Source: a virus. Taken from it: 50,610 nucleotides of DNA. The stretch is from the IMG/VR virus record IMGVR_UViG_3300037258_000793, positions 1 to 50,610 of that record; one strand, written 5' to 3'. The notes under the pieces are model-generated. The model saw only the letters and a program-made list of their open reading frames with translations, was not told the origin of the DNA and ran no database searches. This document shows positions 1 to 50,102 of the stretch, piece after piece. The position numbers were made by a program, and so were the translations under genes. Each line of letters starts with the position of its first letter. Position 1 is the stretch's first letter.

Positions 1-1334
1 GACGCGCCCTCGGCCGGACCGGACGCCAACTGCGGCTGGCGCCACATCGCCAACGTCCGCAGCGTGCCCAACTCCGGCTCGTCCAGCTCGCCGGTCCGGT
101 CCCCGATCAGGGCGCACACCTGCGCCAGCTCACGCGGCGAGGCGGCCTCGAGGATCGCGCCGTAGAACATGCCGGCCAGCTCGGACGGCTCCGTCGTGAA
201 CTCCGGCTGCGGGCCGGGCGCCTGACCGGGCACCCGCACCGGGGCCGCGACCGGCCGCACCTGCGGCTCGTCGCCCACCTCGGCCTGCCCGCGCACCCGC
301 GCGATCAGGCCGTCACGCCGCCGGCCCAGCTCGTCGATCGCCGTCATGGCGTCCTGCAGCGTCAACTCGTTCGCACTGGCGATCGGCCGGCCGAGGATGG
401 CCGCGAGCACGCCGTGTTTCTCGTCGCCCGACCAGCCTTTCATCATCGCCTGGAGTTTGCGCATCTGCGGCTGCGAGGCGGGAGCGCCGCGGCCGGCGGT
501 GGGCGAGGGGCGGTCCGGGCGCGCGTCGTCCCACGGCTCACGCTGCGCCTGCCGCTCGACCTCGTCGGGCGGCAGCTCCTCGTCCTGCGGCGCGATCTCC
601 TCGGCGTCGGTCGGCTCGGCCGGGCCGACCGCGAACTCGTCATCCGGATCCGCCTGCCGGGAGCGTCGAGCCTTACGCTCCACCGCCTCCGCCACCTGCT
701 GCGGCGAAACGACGACCGGCGCCCGGTCGCGCGCGTCGGCCTGCTCCATCTCCTCCGCGGTGTAGATCCCGCCAAGGTCCTGCGGGAACGCCTTGCGCAG
801 GGCGAGCGCTTCCGCGCACTTGGCGAGCATCGTGGCGGGCATCTTGCGCCACATCGGCGTCGGCTGCCCGCTCTTCGTCATCGCCACGTACTCCGCGAGC
901 GTGGCCACCGCCGGGAAAGTGTGGCCGTCCCGATGAACGGTCACCTTCGCTGCGCGCGGGGGCGCTTCCTCGAGCCAGACGTCACGCCACATGCCGTCCG
1001 GGCCGCACCACAGCGTGTCCGCGTACGAGAGCTGCACGCGGTCCCGGTTCGCCGCGCGGTGCGCCACCACCCGGTAGCCGTCGATGCCGGTCTGCGAGCG
1101 GAAGATCTCCCGCTGCGCCCGGCCGTCCCAGCGGCCGATCAGATAGATCTGCCGGGTGAACGGGTCGAGCTGCGTGCGCTGCGACTCGTGCAGGAACGCG
1201 GTCAGTTCGGCTTGGCTGACCTGCTCGCTGACGCCGACGGAGTGCAGGACGGCGAGCTGCTGCTCGGTCCATGCGGTCTGCTCGGCGCCGACGGCCAGCG
1301 CGCCGCCTGTCCGGACTTCGATCTCAGTGCTCAC
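1..1334 (-). CDS. recT: RecT/Bet-family single-strand annealing recombinase (C-terminus cut by window edge)
   Basis: This is a phage annealing protein that pairs complementary single strands during recombination and replication. The N-terminal 200 residues carry the family pattern: LHESQRTQLDPFTRQIYLIG near residue 45, then FRSQTGIDGYRVVA, TLWCGPDGMW, and PTPMWRKMPATMLAKCAEA followed by LRKAFPQDLGGIYTAEEM. An acidic, proline-rich linker follows. The C-terminal helical part (LAGMFYGAILEA, then QVCALIGDR) still runs at position 1, so the stop lies outside the window. The GTG start at 1334 overlaps the upstream gene by 11 bases. No partner exonuclease or SSB gene is visible in the window. Confidence 0.93.
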   Translation of the reverse strand, partial: MSTEIEVRTGGALAVGAEQTAWTEQQLAVLHSVGVSEQVSQAELTAFLHESQRTQLDPFTRQIYLIGRWDGRAQREIFRSQTGIDGYRVVAHRAANRDRVQLSYADTLWCGPDGMWRDVWLEEAPPRAAKVTVHRDGHTFPAVATLAEYVAMTKSGQPTPMWRKMPATMLAKCAEALALRKAFPQDLGGIYTAEEMEQADARDRAPVVVSPQQVAEAVERKARRSRQADPDDEFAVGPAEPTDAEEIAPQDEELPPDEVERQAQREPWDDARPDRPSPTAGRGAPASQPQMRKLQAMMKGWSGDEKHGVLAAILGRPIASANELTLQDAMTAIDELGRRRDGLIARVRGQAEVGDEPQVRPVAAPVRVPGQAPGPQPEFTTEPSELAGMFYGAILEAASPRELAQVCALIGDRTGELDEPELGTLRTLAMWRQPQLASGPAEGA

Positions 1335-30917: not shown

Positions 30918-32006
30918 ATGGTCACGAAGGTACAGCAGTTTTTCGAACGTATGTACTACCGTTACGGCATGGATCGAACAGCCGCCGACGGGAAGCCTCC
31001 GCTGGTGGTCGGCGGATGGCTCGCCGACAACGAAGGCGTCGGCTACTACCGCATCCGCGTCCCGCTCGACGCGCTGGAGCAGCGCGGCCACCACGTCGAG
31101 TACCGCGGAGACATGCCCTGGCGGCACGGCAAGCGGCCGCCGACGCATGTCCTGGTCGGGCAGCGCGTCTCGAACCCGGGGCCGTCGCGCCGGTGGCTGT
31201 ACTCGCGCGGTGAGGTGCGCCGGGTGTTCGAGCTGGACGACGATCTGCTCAACGTCGACCCGACCAGCGCGGCAGCCCGCCACTACTACGCCGATGCGCG
31301 GCGGCGCGCCCGCGTGCTGGCCAACATCCGGTCGGCGGACGCGGTGACCGTCTCGACCGAGTACCTCGCGCGCGTGGTCCAGGCCGAGTACGGCGTCCAG
31401 GCGCCGGTGTACGTGCTGCCGAACTGCCTCGAGGCCCGCGCGCTAGAACTGGCGCCGGTCGACCAGGCCGGGACGGTGTCGGTCGGCTGGTGGGGCAGCT
31501 CGACGCACCGCGGGGACTTCGAGCAGATGCGCGGCCCGCTGCGCGCCTGGTTCACCGCGCATCCCGAGGTGGCGCTGGTGATGGGTGGCGCGGACTACGG
31601 GCCGCTGCTCGGCGTCGACGCCGCGGTGCGGCCGTGGCGGCCGATCTGGCGCGACCCGGGCGCGTACATGGCGGGGATCGACGTGCAGATCGGGCTCGCA
31701 CCCCTGCGGAACACGCAGTTCAACCGGTGCAAGAGCCCGCTCAAGGCACTGGAGTACGGGGCGCGCGGCATCCCGGTGATCGCCTCCGACGTCGAGCCCT
31801 ACCGCGGGTTCGTGCGGCACGGCGAGACCGGGTTCCTCATCGAGCACGACCGCGAATGGCCGGACGCGCTCGACGCCCTGGTGAAAGACACGGACCTGCG
31901 CGCGCGAATGGGCGCCGCGGCCCGGAAGCAGGCGGCCGACTGGCTGATCGACGACCACATCCACCTCTGGGAGGCCGCATACCGCGGCGAAGGAGAAGAG
32001 AACTGA
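30918..32006 (+). CDS. GT-B glycosyltransferase (GT4-like)
   Basis: A roughly 350-residue retaining-type glycosyltransferase. The N-terminal Rossmann half begins LVVGGWLADNEGVGYYRIRVPLDALEQRGHHVEYRGD and contains SADAVTVSTEYLARVVQ and VYVLPNCLEA. The C-terminal half has SVGWWGSSTHRGDFEQM, IGLAPLRNTQFNRCKSPLKALEYGARGIPVIASDVEPY (the sugar-nucleotide site with the ExG pattern) and GFLIEHDREWPDALDAL. Start uncertain: ATG 30918 or 30969, neither with a clear ribosome site; 30969 fits the fold better. First gene of a rightward cassette against the structural operon. Confidence 0.88.
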   Translation: MVTKVQQFFERMYYRYGMDRTAADGKPPLVVGGWLADNEGVGYYRIRVPLDALEQRGHHVEYRGDMPWRHGKRPPTHVLVGQRVSNPGPSRRWLYSRGEVRRVFELDDDLLNVDPTSAAARHYYADARRRARVLANIRSADAVTVSTEYLARVVQAEYGVQAPVYVLPNCLEARALELAPVDQAGTVSVGWWGSSTHRGDFEQMRGPLRAWFTAHPEVALVMGGADYGPLLGVDAAVRPWRPIWRDPGAYMAGIDVQIGLAPLRNTQFNRCKSPLKALEYGARGIPVIASDVEPYRGFVRHGETGFLIEHDREWPDALDALVKDTDLRARMGAAARKQAADWLIDDHIHLWEAAYRGEGEEN

Positions 32007-32007
32007 G

Positions 32008-32535
32008 ATGCCGTACTCGTCAGGCCAGGGCAAGATGTGGCTGCTCACCCGGATCCGCGATCTGCAACCGCGCAGCATCCTGGACATCGGGGCCGGCTCC
32101 GGCACCTACTGGGACCTTCTAGGGTCCTACCTGCCGGACTGCCAGTTCACCGCGGTCGAGGTGCACGAGCCGTACGTCGACCAGTTCCGGCTGGGCAGCA
32201 AGTACAACCACGTGATCGTCGGCGACGCCCGGACCACCGAGCTGCCGGAGGCGGACGTGGTGATCCTCGGCGACGTGCTCGAGCACATGCGGTTCGGCGA
32301 CGCGAAGGCGCTGTGGACCCGGTGCCGGCAGGCGGCGCGGACGGCGGTGTTCCTGTCGCTGCCGATCGTCGAGTGGCCGCAGGGCCCCGTCGACGGGAAC
32401 GAGCACGAGGCCCACGTCCACCACTGGTCGTACGGGGCGGTGACGGCGCATCTGGAGGGGATCCGGGACTCGCACGCCTATCAGGCGATCGGCGTGTTCC
32501 AGGCCGGTCCGCTGGCGCAGGACGACGCGCTGTGA
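32008..32535 (+). CDS. SAM-dependent methyltransferase
   Basis: A 175-residue class I methyltransferase. Motif I is SILDIGAGSGTYWDLLG, motif II region FTAVEVHEPYVDQF, motif III VIVGDARTTELPEADVVILGDVLEHMRFGDA (the DVLEHM form common in sugar and small-molecule methyltransferases), and a later VFLSLPIVEWPQG strand. It begins one base after the glycosyltransferase stop, with ribosome site GGAGAAG, and overlaps the next gene as GTGA. It likely methylates a sugar or carrier made by the cassette. Confidence 0.88.
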   Translation: MPYSSGQGKMWLLTRIRDLQPRSILDIGAGSGTYWDLLGSYLPDCQFTAVEVHEPYVDQFRLGSKYNHVIVGDARTTELPEADVVILGDVLEHMRFGDAKALWTRCRQAARTAVFLSLPIVEWPQGPVDGNEHEAHVHHWSYGAVTAHLEGIRDSHAYQAIGVFQAGPLAQDDAL

Positions 32536-43967: not shown

Positions 43968-44497
43968 CGGTGCCCTGCGCGCTGGTCGTCGGCGGCCGCG
44001 GCCTGGTCGAGGATGGCGAGCAGCTGCGCGCGGATCGGGGAGTCGTTGGGCCGCGGGGCGCCCGGTGTCTCGGTGTCGGCGGCGGGGATGTAGCCGGTCC
44101 ACTGCTCGGGCGTTTTGAGCGAGTACGGCGGATCGCAGAGTTTGCGGGCGATCTGCGGGTGGGCGAGTACGAGGTCGCGGCGTTGCTGGTTGAGGATCGG
44201 GGCGTGGATGGCGCGGTGGCTGACGCGTTTGCGCCATTCGCCGGGGTTCTGCGCGATGTTCTCGGGTGGCACGGGGATGGGCTTGTTGTGGGGTGCCGGG
44301 CCCAGCAGGTAGCGGATGTCGGCCGGGCGTATGCGGTCGGGGTTGCGGCTGTAGTGCCGGGTGACCATGTCGCGGCAGGCGGTGAAGTCGAGGTCGTGGA
44401 GGGCTCCGGCCCAGGCGATGACGTCGGCGTCGCCGACGGTGCGCTGGTCGTAGCAGGCTATGAAGGCGAGTAGCTGCGCCGCCTCGGACATGATCAT
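43964..44497 (-). CDS. helicase-loader-like protein (lambda P / G39P role)
   Basis: A 177-residue protein directly coupled to the replication initiator (ATGA). The N-terminal 60 residues match the pattern of replicative-helicase loader/inhibitor proteins such as SPP1 G39P: SEAAQLLAFIACYDQRTVGDADVIAWAGALHDLDFTACRDMVTRHYSRNPDRIRPADIRYLL. The rest is basic and flexible, with a short helical end. In lambda and SPP1 such proteins bring the host DnaB-type helicase to the initiator-bound origin. No helicase gene is seen here, so host helicase would be used. Confidence 0.72.
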   Translation of the reverse strand: MIMSEAAQLLAFIACYDQRTVGDADVIAWAGALHDLDFTACRDMVTRHYSRNPDRIRPADIRYLLGPAPHNKPIPVPPENIAQNPGEWRKRVSHRAIHAPILNQQRRDLVLAHPQIARKLCDPPYSLKTPEQWTGYIPAADTETPGAPRPNDSPIRAQLLAILDQAAAADDQRAGHR

Positions 44498-45363
44498 GTG
44501 GTGATCTCCGGGCGGTTCGTGCCGAACAGGTCCGGGAGTTGGCCGGTCTGCTCCATGGCGCGGTATTTGGCGGCGAGGTCGAGGGCGGCGCCGACGCGCT
44601 GGTCGGTGGTGGAGGGCCTCGGCGGATACGGGCCGTTGGCTGTCGGCGCGAAGGCGCCGGAGGTTGTGGGGGGCGGCTGGAACCGGTCGGCGGCGCTGAG
44701 GATCCAGTTGTGCCAGGTGCGTTCCCAATTGAGCTTTACGCCTTTAGAGCCGGGCACCGACGAGAAGTGGTTGATGAATTTCTGCGTTTCACGTTCGCCG
44801 TCGACGTGCGGGGCGTTTTCCCGGCCCCATTCCCGCATGGCGTCGGTGAGGGCGAAGTCTTCCGGGATGCGGGTGCCCCGCTTGGCGGCTGTCGTCGAGC
44901 CGCGCTTGCGCGGCGCCGAAGACGAACGTAGTGAGTCTTCTTGTTCTTCTGTTCCTTGGTGGTTCTGTGTGTCAGCAGTGACACCCCTGGGTGGTCGATC
45001 TGACACCCCTGGGGTGTCATTTTGGAACCCCTGGGGTGTCAGATTGAGACTCGTAGTGGTGTCATCCTGCGACCCCTGGGGTGTCAGTCTGGTACCACTA
45101 GGGCCGTCCATGAGGATCCGGTAGCGACTCGTCGAGCGCCCGGTGCCGTGCTGCGATATCTCAAGCCAGCGCTTTCCGATGCAATTCTTCTGCGTGCGGA
45201 AAACGGTGCTGCGGCTCATTCTTGTCTTGCGTGCGAGTGTTTCCACGCTGGGGAATGCCTCGCCCTCGTCGTCGGCGAAATCCGCGATGGCGAGCAGCAG
45301 CAGCAGGTCGTTTCCGGCCGCGGGGGAGGTGTCCCACACCCATGACATGACCCTGACGCTCAC
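44494..45363 (-). CDS. replication initiator (lambda O-like) carrying the origin
   Basis: A 289-residue protein. The start is GTG 45363 with ribosome site GGGAG; ATG 45348 is an alternative. The N-terminal winged helix (residues 15-95) reads DLLLLLAIADFADDEGEAFPSVETLARKTRMSRSTVFRTQKNCI and RYRILMDG, like phage O-type and DnaD-like initiators. Residues 95-150 are low-complexity and are encoded by 22-base DNA iterons. The C-terminal domain (PEDFALTDAMREWGRENAP, ETQKFINHFSSVPGSKGVKLNWERTWHNWIL) resembles the partner-binding end of such initiators. It is followed by the loader-like gene. Confidence 0.82.
   Translation of the reverse strand: MSVRVMSWVWDTSPAAGNDLLLLLAIADFADDEGEAFPSVETLARKTRMSRSTVFRTQKNCIGKRWLEISQHGTGRSTSRYRILMDGPSGTRLTPQGSQDDTTTSLNLTPQGFQNDTPGVSDRPPRGVTADTQNHQGTEEQEDSLRSSSAPRKRGSTTAAKRGTRIPEDFALTDAMREWGRENAPHVDGERETQKFINHFSSVPGSKGVKLNWERTWHNWILSAADRFQPPPTTSGAFAPTANGPYPPRPSTTDQRVGAALDLAAKYRAMEQTGQLPDLFGTNRPEITT
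44979..45110. other. ori: iteron-type replication origin inside the initiator gene
   Basis: Six copies of a near-palindrome are spaced 22-23 bases apart, with centres at 44988, 45010, 45032, 45055, 45077 and 45099. The copy at 45001-45019, TGACACCCCTGGGGTGTCA, is a perfect palindrome. Those centred at 45032 and 45077 keep ACCCCTGGGGTGTCA; the others are degraded. The spacing is not a multiple of three, so protein repetition cannot explain it. On the downstream side of the gene (44926-44975) lies a T-rich, lower-GC tract, a candidate unwinding element. The layout mirrors lambda ori in gene O. Confidence 0.78.
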
Positions 45364-45445
45364 CAGGCCACTCCCGTCCGTTCGCACTGCTCACTGGATA
45401 GATCTTACAACACTTGGTAGTCTTGGCGACACTAGACAAATCTCA

Positions 45446-46676: not shown

Positions 46677-47206
46677 CAGGCACCGTCCGGGCGCCACAGC
46701 ACCGTGAACGGCGCCCACTGGGCCAGGGCGGCGACGTCGCTGTCCACATCGGCGCTCAGGTCGACGTCCTCGGGCGTCTCGATCGCGAGCGGGACGTCGT
46801 CGCCTGCGCGCAGCAGCGCCGGAAACTCGCTCTTCACCTCGCAGCCGTCGCCCAGGTAGTAGGTCACCTCGCCGTGGCCGACCTGCCAGGCGCAGTGGTG
46901 CCGGTCGATCAGGATGCTGCGGGAGGGCAGGGCGCGCAGCCACGCGCCGATCTCGGCCGGGTCGGTCGGCGAGACGACGGCCGCGGCCGTTAGGCGCCTG
47001 TTTTCGGCGACCAGCGCGCGGATCGGCTCGGCGAACAGGGCCCGGATCAGCCCATCGCGCTGCGCGAGCAGGCTGTAGAGGCCGTCCAGTGAGATCTTCC
47101 TCGTGCCCAGGTCCGGCACGACGTGCGGGAAGCCGCTGCCGTCGGGGTTGAGCAGTTCGGTGAGGCGCCCGATGGGGCTCATCGGCGGCGGGGTGTCAGG
47201 CGCCAT
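46676..47206 (-). CDS. hypothetical early protein
   Basis: A 176-residue protein from ATG 47206. It has a helical middle (RKISLDGLYSLLAQRDGLIRALFAEPIRALVAENRRLTA) and a strand-rich second half (RSILIDRHHCAWQVGHGEVTYYLGDGCEVKSEFPALL, PFTVLWRPDG). It overlaps its upstream neighbour by 11 bases. No family recognised. Confidence 0.67.
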   Translation of the reverse strand: MAPDTPPPMSPIGRLTELLNPDGSGFPHVVPDLGTRKISLDGLYSLLAQRDGLIRALFAEPIRALVAENRRLTAAAVVSPTDPAEIGAWLRALPSRSILIDRHHCAWQVGHGEVTYYLGDGCEVKSEFPALLRAGDDVPLAIETPEDVDLSADVDSDVAALAQWAPFTVLWRPDGA

Positions 47207-47900
47207 CGGACACCGCCTCGGCCTGCTCGTCGTTCTCCGGCTCGACTGCGAGGTACGTCTCGTAGTCCGGCTCCTCGTCGCCGCCGGTGCACACGGTCTC
47301 GGGCCGGATCCGGTAGCGGCCGTTCTCCTGCGGCCACGAGGGCGCCATGGCGTCGTGCGATGCCCAGCACACGGCGCCCGGCGGCAGGTACCGGCACTCG
47401 TCCGGGTGCAGCAGTTGGTAGGACGGCGCGGGCTCGCCGGTGAACAGGTCCGGCTCGATCTTGCGGATCAGGGTGTGCCAGGGCAGATCGAGTTCGGTCT
47501 GATCGCTCGACCAGCGCCGGGCATGCAGCCGCCGCGCGTAGTGCCGGATGCGCTCGTACTTCTGCTCGGTGGTGTGGCCGTCCCAGCCCGTGTCGCCCGG
47601 CTCGCTCGGCCGCACGTACGTGAACAGGTCCCGGTCGTCCGGGGCGATGTGCCAGGCCAGCTGCCCGCCGGGCGTGTCGATGATGACGACGGCCCAGCCG
47701 GGCTCTTCCGGGTCGGTGTAGCCGATGTGCGAGGGGTGGAGCGCGGCGAGCAGCGCGACGAGGTGGGCGCGCTCGCGGTAGGCGCCGTTGAGCGCGTTGC
47801 GGGCGTCGTCGCGCTCGCGCCAGGCGGTCTCACAGCGATCGGACCACTGCTCGGCGACGGCAGCCCAGTCGGGGTCGCGGTCGACGGGGGTATCAGGCAT
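47196..47900 (-). CDS. hypothetical early protein
   Basis: A 234-residue protein with ribosome site TAGGAG before ATG 47900. A helical start (WAAVAEQWSDRCETAWRERDDARNAL, YRERAHLVALLAALHPSHIGY) is followed by a strand pair (GWAVVIIDTPGGQLAWHIAPDDRDLF) and the phrase GDTGWDGHTTEQKYERIRHYARRL. That phrase also occurs in other actinophage proteins of unknown function. The C-terminal third is mixed, with four Cys. No function can be given. Confidence 0.7.
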   Translation of the reverse strand: MPDTPVDRDPDWAAVAEQWSDRCETAWRERDDARNALNGAYRERAHLVALLAALHPSHIGYTDPEEPGWAVVIIDTPGGQLAWHIAPDDRDLFTYVRPSEPGDTGWDGHTTEQKYERIRHYARRLHARRWSSDQTELDLPWHTLIRKIEPDLFTGEPAPSYQLLHPDECRYLPPGAVCWASHDAMAPSWPQENGRYRIRPETVCTGGDEEPDYETYLAVEPENDEQAEAVSDGA

Positions 47901-48015: not shown

Positions 48016-49365
48016 CTAGTCGGCGTCGGCCACCGGGGGCACCGTCGCGCAGATCAGCCTCACCTGCTCCTGCAGGTCCTCCAGCGTGTTCTGACCCGCG
48101 AACAGCCGGTTCGCCGTGCGCTCGTCCAGCCCCAGGGCCGTGCGCGCGGCGTGCGAGATCTGCACGTGCTCGCGCCCGAATCGCGGCCGCAGCTGCTCCG
48201 GCAGGGACGCCACCTCCACGGCGAAGTCCTCCCGGCGCATGCGGCCGCCGAGCTCGGCGACGACGTGCCCGGCCATGCAGTACGCGGTCCCGCAGTCCGT
48301 CTCGGTGATCCACGAGTTCTGCTCCCAGGTCTCCGGGTGCTCCTCGATCCGCTGCAGGGCCCGCTGCAGGAGCGCCGGGTCGCTCGTCAGCGGGACGCGC
48401 TGAACGAGCGCGCCCCCGGTGACCTCCACCTCGCCGTAGACGCGGACAGTGACGTGCTCGTCGGCGGTCACAGTGCCGGCGCCGGTGTGCAGAACACTGG
48501 AGTAGTCGTGGGCCTCGGTGCGCGGCGACGACGAGCCGTAGGCCTCGGTGCGCGGCGACGACGAGCCGTAGGCCTCGGTGCGCGGCGACGACGAGTCGTA
48601 GGCCTCGGTGATCGGCGACGACGAGTCGTAGGCCTCGGTGATCGGCGACGACGAGTCGTGGGCCTCGGTGCGCGGCGACGACGAGTCGTGGGCCTCGGTG
48701 CGCGGCGACGACGAGTCGTGGGCCTCGGTGATCGGCGACGACGAGTCGTAGGCCTCGGTGATCGGCGACGACGAGCCGTGGGCCACGGTGATCGGCGACG
48801 ACGAGTCGTAGGCCTCGGTGCGCGGCGACGACGAGCCGTAGGCCTCGGTGCGCGGCGACGACGAGCCGTAGGCCTCGGTGCGCGGCGACGACGAGCCGTA
48901 GGCCTCGGTGATCGGCGACGACGAGCCGTAGGCCTCGGTGATCGGCGACGACGAGCCGTAGGCCACGGTGCGCGGCGACGACGAGCCGTAGGCCACGGTG
49001 CGCGGCGACGACGAGTCGTAGGCCTCGGTGATCGGCGACGACGAGTCGTGGGCCACGGTGCGCGGCGACGACGAGTCGTGGGCCACGGTGCGCGGCGACG
49101 ACGAGCCGTAGGCCTCGGTGATCGGCGACGACGAGCCGTAGGCCACGGTGATCGGCGACGACGAGCCGTAGGCCACGGTGATCGGCGACGACGAGCCGTG
49201 GGCCACGAGGGTGGGCGTCGCGGCCCCCTCGACCTTGATCGTGTGGCCGCGCGGGATGTCGGCCGGGATCTCGTAGCGGCCGTCGTTGCTGATGAGCGGG
49301 TAGTCGCTCGCGGCGATGGCGGCCGCGAATGTGATCTGGTCGGTGACGGGCACGTACTGGTACAC
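48016..49365 (-). CDS. decapeptide-repeat protein with DUF6197-like C-terminal domain
   Basis: A 449-residue protein from GTG 49365 (ribosome site AGAGGA). Residues 1-50 (DQITFAAAIAASDYPLISNDGRYEIPADIP) form a short cap. Then come 23 copies of a 10-residue repeat of the form A-(Y/H)-(G/D)-S-S-S-P-(I/R)-T-(E/V), which should build a regular beta-solenoid. After VRVYGEVEVTGG comes a globular domain with LLQRALQRIEEHPETWEQ, DCGTAYCMAGHVVAELGG and HAARTALGLDERTANRLFAGQNTLEDL, resembling DUF6197. A hairpin follows. Function unknown; the solenoid could mimic a surface or DNA, or hold the C-terminal domain at a distance. Confidence 0.8.
   Translation of the reverse strand: MYQYVPVTDQITFAAAIAASDYPLISNDGRYEIPADIPRGHTIKVEGAATPTLVAHGSSSPITVAYGSSSPITVAYGSSSPITEAYGSSSPRTVAHDSSSPRTVAHDSSSPITEAYDSSSPRTVAYGSSSPRTVAYGSSSPITEAYGSSSPITEAYGSSSPRTEAYGSSSPRTEAYGSSSPRTEAYDSSSPITVAHGSSSPITEAYDSSSPITEAHDSSSPRTEAHDSSSPRTEAHDSSSPITEAYDSSSPITEAYDSSSPRTEAYGSSSPRTEAYGSSSPRTEAHDYSSVLHTGAGTVTADEHVTVRVYGEVEVTGGALVQRVPLTSDPALLQRALQRIEEHPETWEQNSWITETDCGTAYCMAGHVVAELGGRMRREDFAVEVASLPEQLRPRFGREHVQISHAARTALGLDERTANRLFAGQNTLEDLQEQVRLICATVPPVADAD
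48511..49200 (-). repeat. 23 tandem 30-bp coding repeats
   Basis: The 30-base unit is repeated 23 times without interruption. All differences fall in four codons, each with just two forms: TAC/CAC, GGC/GAC, ATC/CGC and GAG/GTG (coding strand). All other bases, including silent positions, are identical in every unit. Confidence 0.95.
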
Positions 49366-49442: not shown

Positions 49443-50102
49443 CTATGCCGGGTGCGCGTCGGCGTACGCCGCCAGGACCGGGGCCGGGATCGTGCCGCGC
49501 TCGCCGATCTCGAGGCCGTTCTCCCGGGCCCATGCCCGGATCTCGAGGTTGCGCGTGCGCTCCACGATGGGCGCCGGGGCGGCCGCTTTGGCCTTCTGGC
49601 CGCCGGCGAGCCGCAGGGCCTCGCGGGCCGCGGACAGCTGTGCGGTCAGCCGCTCGACCTGCTCCTGCGCGTCCGCGACCTGCTCGGCGCGCCGGGAGAT
49701 CCCGCGCAGCTCCTCGACCTGGAGCCGGATCTTCGCGGCGAGCGACTGCGCGCGCGCAGGGCCGTCCTTCTCGGCCCACTCCAGCAGCTCGTCGACGGTG
49801 TCGAGGTCCGCGCCGTTGACGACGGCCGTCGGCGTCACCTCGATCACCGGCGACCTGTACCGGCTGGCCGGGGCCATCGGCTTCGGCGTGGGCTTCGGCG
49901 CCTGCACGTTCGCCGGCGTCGGCCGAGCTGCGCGGTTCGCGTCCGCCCGACCGACCGCCGCGGCGATCTGCGCCCGGGTCAGTCCCGTCTCGTCTTCGAC
50001 CAGTTTCAGGTCCTTGCCGTTGCGCACCATCAGGACCGCCTGCGCCTGGTTGGCGGCAAGCGCGGGGCCGCGGTCGGCCCTCGTCGTGTCGGTGGTGGTC
50101 AT
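49443..50102 (-). CDS. Lsr2-like DNA-binding protein with N-terminal helix-turn-helix and coiled coil
   Basis: A 219-residue protein from ATG 50102 (ATGA overlap). Residues 15-55 contain a helix-turn-helix-like stretch (LKLVEDETGLTRAQIAAAVGRADANRAAR). A Pro-rich linker and a coiled coil (LAAKIRLQVEELRGISRRAEQVADAQEQVERLTAQL) follow. The end, EIRAWARENGLEIGERGTIPAPVLAAYADAHPA, matches the DNA-binding domain of Lsr2, the actinobacterial silencer of AT-rich foreign DNA. The AT-hook-like RGR is RGT here. The normal Lsr2 N-terminal dimer domain is absent. It may compete with or modify host silencing. Confidence 0.8.
   Translation of the reverse strand: MTTTDTTRADRGPALAANQAQAVLMVRNGKDLKLVEDETGLTRAQIAAAVGRADANRAARPTPANVQAPKPTPKPMAPASRYRSPVIEVTPTAVVNGADLDTVDELLEWAEKDGPARAQSLAAKIRLQVEELRGISRRAEQVADAQEQVERLTAQLSAAREALRLAGGQKAKAAAPAPIVERTRNLEIRAWARENGLEIGERGTIPAPVLAAYADAHPA

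Follow-up and report, generated by a model that had tools for sequence, protein, structure and literature searches.

A single gene of this virus encodes a modular protein that consists of an N-terminal cap, an array of 23 decapeptides and a C-terminal domain, and its array has probably been shaped by concerted evolution together with protein-level selection that keeps mixed pairs of neutral and charged residues at the surface. The window, i.e. the whole stretch of DNA analysed, comprises 50,610 bases of an IMG/VR virus record (GC 71%) and also carries genes for an integrase, a GntR-type regulator, a terminase-like protein and RecT. In the protein, the cap precedes the array, which is followed by the C-terminal domain (Table 1). 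The position of the gene may point to early expression. Downstream of it lies a WDGH-domain gene (47199-47900) whose match barely exceeds the Pfam cut-off.

Table 1. Positions of the array gene, its parts and other genes of the window.
Feature	Position	Strand	Remarks
Whole array gene	48016-49365	-	GTG start at 49365, stop at 48016-48018; 449 residues; orthologue in G001
N-terminal cap	49207-49365	-	53 residues; beta-alpha-beta (predicted)
Decapeptide array	48517-49206	-	23 units [VE]A[YH][GD]SSSP[IR]T; predicted beta-solenoid
Degenerate coils past the array (EAHDYSSVLHTGAGTVTADEHVTVRVYGEVEVTGGALVQR)	48397-48516	-	
C-terminal helical domain	48019-48396	-	motif HPETW..CGT..C.AG; phrog_889, E = 1.6e-15
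Gene with Lsr2 DNA-binding domain	49446-50102	-	adjoins the array gene, upstream
RecT annealing protein domain	726-1268	-	E = 1.4e-27

Elsewhere in the window, four imperfect copies of a 19-nt palindrome, TGACACCCCTGGGGTGTCA, were observed at 44979-45086, within a replication gene of DnaD/HTH type on the minus strand (44497-45387). Seven matches with at most 3 mismatches were found on both strands where 0.01 would be expected, and these copies are candidate origin iterons. A glycosyltransferase gene followed by a methyltransferase-like gene (30918-32535, plus strand) is oriented opposite to the surrounding genes and is possibly a late-acquired cassette.

The 23 units, each of 30 nt, run in frame without interruption (TRF score 1067, period 30). 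Four codons per unit vary between two states, GTG/GAG, TAC/CAC, GGC/GAC and ATC/CGC, and neither a third state nor an intermediate codon was found at these sites among the 23 units. The remaining six codons are invariant in 23 of 23 units, so that silent variation in the array is nil. Our codon tally thereby bears out the preliminary description, which had reported 23 units, four two-state codons (ATC versus CGC without intermediate among them) and identical silent sites; the array that it placed at 48511-49200 is real, but the in-frame span is shifted by six bases. Eleven of the 16 possible combinations are used as unit types, all four combinations are present for each of the six pairs of sites, and neighbouring units are more alike than chance at lag 1 only (p = 0.003). 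As the sequence comes from a virus contig in IMG/VR, the number and order of units are provisional.

The frozen silent sites had been presented as strong evidence against point mutation. For this one array that was an overstatement: silent sites make up about 9 of 30 per unit (about 30%), all variation rests on four variable codons, i.e. five bases, and the chance that every change is a replacement without selection is about 0.2. Selection is therefore not proved by the window array alone, and relatives are needed to decide.

An orthologue was found in IMGVR_UViG_3300043787_000124 (G001) with a pattern of four consecutive units. Such patterns succeeded where direct back-translation searches did not, as neither the full-length protein nor its C-terminus gave a match in viral or genome collections. 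The sole match of a one-unit pattern (L014) was rejected as a chance match, and none of the pattern matches in genome_contigs had a matching two-state array. The orthologue shares the cap type, the decapeptide, the four codon pairs and the exit sequence EAHDYSSVLHTG with the window protein, while its unit order differs. Protein identity is 61-65% outside the arrays, and 65% between the two caps. The silent codons are identical throughout the units of the orthologue but differ from those of the window (GCG and TCC AGC TCG versus GCC and TCG TCG TCG). Polymorphisms within arrays are replacement to silent 4:0, compared with 0:3 for fixed differences between arrays (Fisher p = 0.029), showing that silent bases have been made uniform array by array and the residue pairs have been retained. 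The orthologue contig breaks inside the array at both sides, with a 64-nt overlap, hence the count of about 24 units is uncertain. Two further IMG/VR phages (L024 and L025) encode decapeptide arrays of the form [VE]A[YN][GD]SS[QA]P[TR]V with a DUF7666-type C-terminus.

Octapeptide arrays were found in mycobacteriophages (Che8 gp59, Squirty gp51, Frankie, SkinnyPete and ThetaBob), in a Porphyromonas phage and in others. Scanning viral contigs yielded 84 array stretches. In 61 non-redundant phage arrays of at least six units, counting variants present at least twice, we observed 198 replacement and 8 silent variants where 27% silent would be expected (p about 8e-19). Because the octapeptide scan prescribed the first bases of certain codons, its V/E and G/D counts are biased; where the codon was unconstrained, the ratio was 85:3 (p = 1.8e-7). 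Decapeptide arrays alone gave 14:0 (p = 0.006), and a small set not found through the scan alone gave 22:4, which is not significant by itself (p = 0.07). The argument from silent sites is thus strong for the pooled arrays. Common residue pairs are E/V, R/W, G/D, G/E and R/S, and in 164 of 188 columns with two alleles a charged residue alternates with an uncharged one, compared with 89 expected. The kept residue pairs and the homogenised silent bases indicate selection on surface diversity within one molecule, and together these results suggest that selection favours a protein surface that is mixed and changes rapidly.

In 56 octapeptide arrays, the sites of one unit are weakly linked (|r| at most 0.13), and neighbouring units are no more alike than chance. 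Allele frequencies, which depend on the reach of the pattern scan and on what assemblers resolve, have means close to 0.5 at three sites; the R/W pair behaves as a fair coin would (X2/df 1.11), and the spread of E/V and G/[DE] across arrays exceeds binomial. Net charge per unit spans -1.7 to +0.45 across arrays and acids and bases are unbalanced, indicating that there is no strict charge homeostasis. Charge alternation along the stack was rejected, as no clear autocorrelation was seen.

Several irregular arrays were noted during these comparisons. The octapeptide array of L096 includes the stretch SPSSVQHRTPSSVQHRTPSSVQHRT, which resembles frameshifted repeat units. In several IMG/VR contigs (L082/L111, L085/L102, L134/L145 and L023/L026) both stored ends carry array stretches, as if assembly had broken in the array. 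The array gene is frameshifted or broken in the mycobacteriophages Nitzel (L015:801-1417), EleanorGeorge (L020:1089-1720) and Soul22 (L021:1031-1510), suggesting that it is dispensable.

Close relatives among the octapeptide phages, rather than near-identical copies of the window gene, provided the evidence on turnover. L083 and L089 have 8 and 15 units and differ by an exact indel of one seven-unit block, while their flanks are 100% identical over 1,500 nt on the downstream side and over all 152 nt that could be compared upstream. L084 and L126 differ by one unit, with 1,500 identical upstream bases. In L150 and L156 the unit order is almost wholly unlike, although the flanks are 98% and 94% identical. 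Among cultured mycobacteriophage isolates of Charlievirus, six of eight, from different US states, share the same four-unit array; BabeRuth and Rebel show no difference in 2859 flank positions but two replacement bases each inside the 96-nt array, and the changed tracts have exact donors of 34 and 41 nt elsewhere in the array. Because these genomes are isolated and complete, assembly error is unlikely there.

These whole-unit indels and internal-donor conversions demonstrate recombination within arrays of the wider family, as the proposed reshuffling had implied, and the window array may well recombine in the same way. Fast change, also proposed, holds relative to the flanks but does not amount to hypervariability, as the one array common to most Charlievirus isolates indicates. 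Comparison of diverse relatives did not reveal an invariant array.

Candidate engines and other causes were considered and rejected. RecT is encoded in the window, yet was seen in just 1 of 18 phages with an array, and so is not a general engine. A diversity-generating retroelement was set aside because no reverse transcriptase (RVT_1) was detected in the window or in 10 relatives, whose records may be fragments, and because the base changes underlying the toggles are of many kinds. Had perfect DNA repeats been selected against, silent variation should have been favoured, yet it is absent here.

The beta-solenoid expected from the repeat was predicted by AlphaFold. Without an alignment, the model already had one strand per unit, and this first single-sequence model gave weak beta-helix matches only. 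With an alignment of 15 sequences (window and IMG/VR), pLDDT reached 83-93 for the cap and for the greater part of both the array and the C-terminal helices; values in the array were mostly 83-89, with an alignment-gap break at about residues 90-116. In the model, [IR]T[VE]A[YH] forms the strand and [GD]SSSP the turn, which begins with the fourth toggle. The other three toggles alternate with T and A and would therefore lie on one common face, presumably outward, with the small T and A inward. The repeating coil of stacked strands that defines a beta-solenoid was found in prediction only. Solved beta-helices aligned well to the model, the antifreeze beta-helix 3p4g over 245 residues (Z 18.0, rmsd 4.3), which is a generic fold match and says nothing on function. 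A structural match to the "RDF protein" of mycobacteriophage Henry was also obtained (E = 0.016). When solved structures were searched by sequence, no convincing match emerged; the hit to NSP1 (E = 0.0044) was of low complexity.

The phrog_889 profile matches residues 333-443 of the protein. Gordonia Cafasso gp64 matches it too, and in Gordonia phages the domain occurs without an array. In the window protein DUF6197 (PF19698) scored 17.2 bits, below its gathering cut-off of 24.6, and DUF7666, present in Che8 gp59, gave no match. Pentapeptide arrays fused to a phrog_889-like domain, with unequal repeat number, were seen in two closely related proteins (L034:1-606 and L035:2416-3192). Occurrence of phrog_889 without an array in Gordonia phages, and of its relative fused to pentapeptides in L034 and L035, suggests that solenoids are exchangeable partners of this domain.

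We propose that the protein is built of modules, a cap, a 23-unit beta-solenoid and a small helical phrog_889 domain, the last of which may be the working module. Recombination between units, by gain or loss of whole units and by conversion of short tracts, would keep silent bases uniform and reshuffle the units. Protein-level selection would then retain both members of V/E, I/R, Y/H and G/D at outward positions, holding the neutral/charged pairs in a mixed, near-random order. Inside the infected cell, the mixed face could serve for binding or as an adaptor, and its specificity or charge might be quickly retuned.

The main alternative, tenable although we lean against it, is that the solenoid is a spacer or solubility rod in which a charge mixture is selected while no sequence is recognised, length and order drifting by recombination. 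Near-random order and weak linkage in the 56 octapeptide arrays, allele frequencies near one half with R/W behaving as a fair coin, and the gain or loss of seven units on identical flanks all agree with it. The overdispersion of E/V and G/[DE] and the lack of strict charge homeostasis across arrays do not. Random order and length tolerance fit such a spacer as well as they fit a contact surface.

Somewhat less probable, in our estimate, is an arms-race recognition surface, the contact surface suggested by the preliminary description, that would evolve by analogy like the Podospora HNWD WD40 repeats. Homogenised repeats, four diversified surface codons and recombination are common to both systems (PMC2873952), and three toggles are predicted to lie on one face; conserved surface toggles and the Podospora parallel fit recognition. 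The single array common to six of eight Charlievirus isolates argues against it. A broader form, which we regard as doubtful, is a widespread phage system of fast diversification without reverse transcriptase, in which two-state solenoid switches are recombined within the array into new surfaces for recognising or blocking host factors as these change. If true, many unrelated phages carry outward neutral/charged two-state switches.

A collapsed or scrambled assembly is improbable. The window is a virus contig, the orthologue contig ends in its array and Ns stand at the array in Porphyromonas phage005a, but the window array lies inside its contig between unique flanks, its longest exact repeat (85 nt) is spanned by ordinary 150-base reads, and cultured phage genomes show the same pattern. 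Recent tandem duplication with point mutation, without within-unit recombination or selection, is more improbable still: it would account for the likeness of neighbouring units in the window and for few silent changes in a young array, but not for four combinations at all site pairs, the same alleles on different silent backgrounds in the orthologue, the pooled replacement excess or the internal donors that explain the isolate differences. That the 30-bp repeats act as DNA (iterons or a partition site), the protein being incidental, is scarcely credible, for although direct repeats of about three helical turns with invariant bases would suit such a role, the silent bases of the orthologue differ while residues are kept, its antisense frame carries stops and the variants are replacements.

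Concerted evolution with selection for mixed surface pairs turns a one-array curiosity into a rule across dozens of phages, with the same kinds of neutral/charged pairs and homogenised silent bases. With these arrays, recombination and selection on repeats can be measured in a small natural system, and the proteins are testable candidates for phage-host contact.

No description of the octapeptide or decapeptide family was found in the open-licence literature. The nearest precedent is Tweety gp54, in which invariant third codon positions and two-state residues led Pham et al. (2007) to propose selection for variation (PMC2884959). Tweety gp54, Che8 gp57 and PMC gp51 (48, 26 and 15 units, with conserved ends) resemble the window array in having two or three residues per variable position. 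Tweety gp54 differs in its 12-bp tetrapeptide unit starting with AA and is another protein, likened to disordered proteins; that study had neither a cross-phage test nor a solenoid model (PMC2884959). Bordetella phage BMP-1 bbp36 VR2, with 9-20 copies of 24-bp repeats in a non-essential gene, was cited there as similar (PMC2884959). Also akin to the window protein are the phrog_15773/DUF7666 proteins (Che8 gp59, Squirty gp51 and SkinnyPete gp38), whose caps its cap motif resembles: both have a TQ-type N-cap followed by a short-period array with matching V/E and G/D toggles, frozen silent sites and unit turnover, but the phrog_15773/DUF7666 proteins have an 8-residue unit and a DUF7666 C-terminus, the window protein a 10-residue unit and phrog_889. 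L024 and L025 toggle at the same positions as the window array and differ in the C-terminal domain. L034 and L035 likewise join a variable-number solenoid repeat to a relative of the phrog_889-type domain, but their A[DNY]LAG-type pentapeptide belongs to another solenoid class. The Podospora anserina HNWD WD40 repeats share concerted evolution and four diversified surface codons per repeat (PMC2873952), a pattern of homogenised silent sites and replacement diversity at few surface codons that we also found here, on a modelled surface; they are eukaryotic propellers whose repeats are much longer and whose role in recognition is known (PMC2873952), and no homology is claimed. New in relation to these systems are the decapeptide form with phrog_889, the orthologue whose silent codons have been replaced while its alleles are shared, the test on pooled arrays, the conversions from donors inside the array and the assignment of the toggles to one face of the predicted strand.
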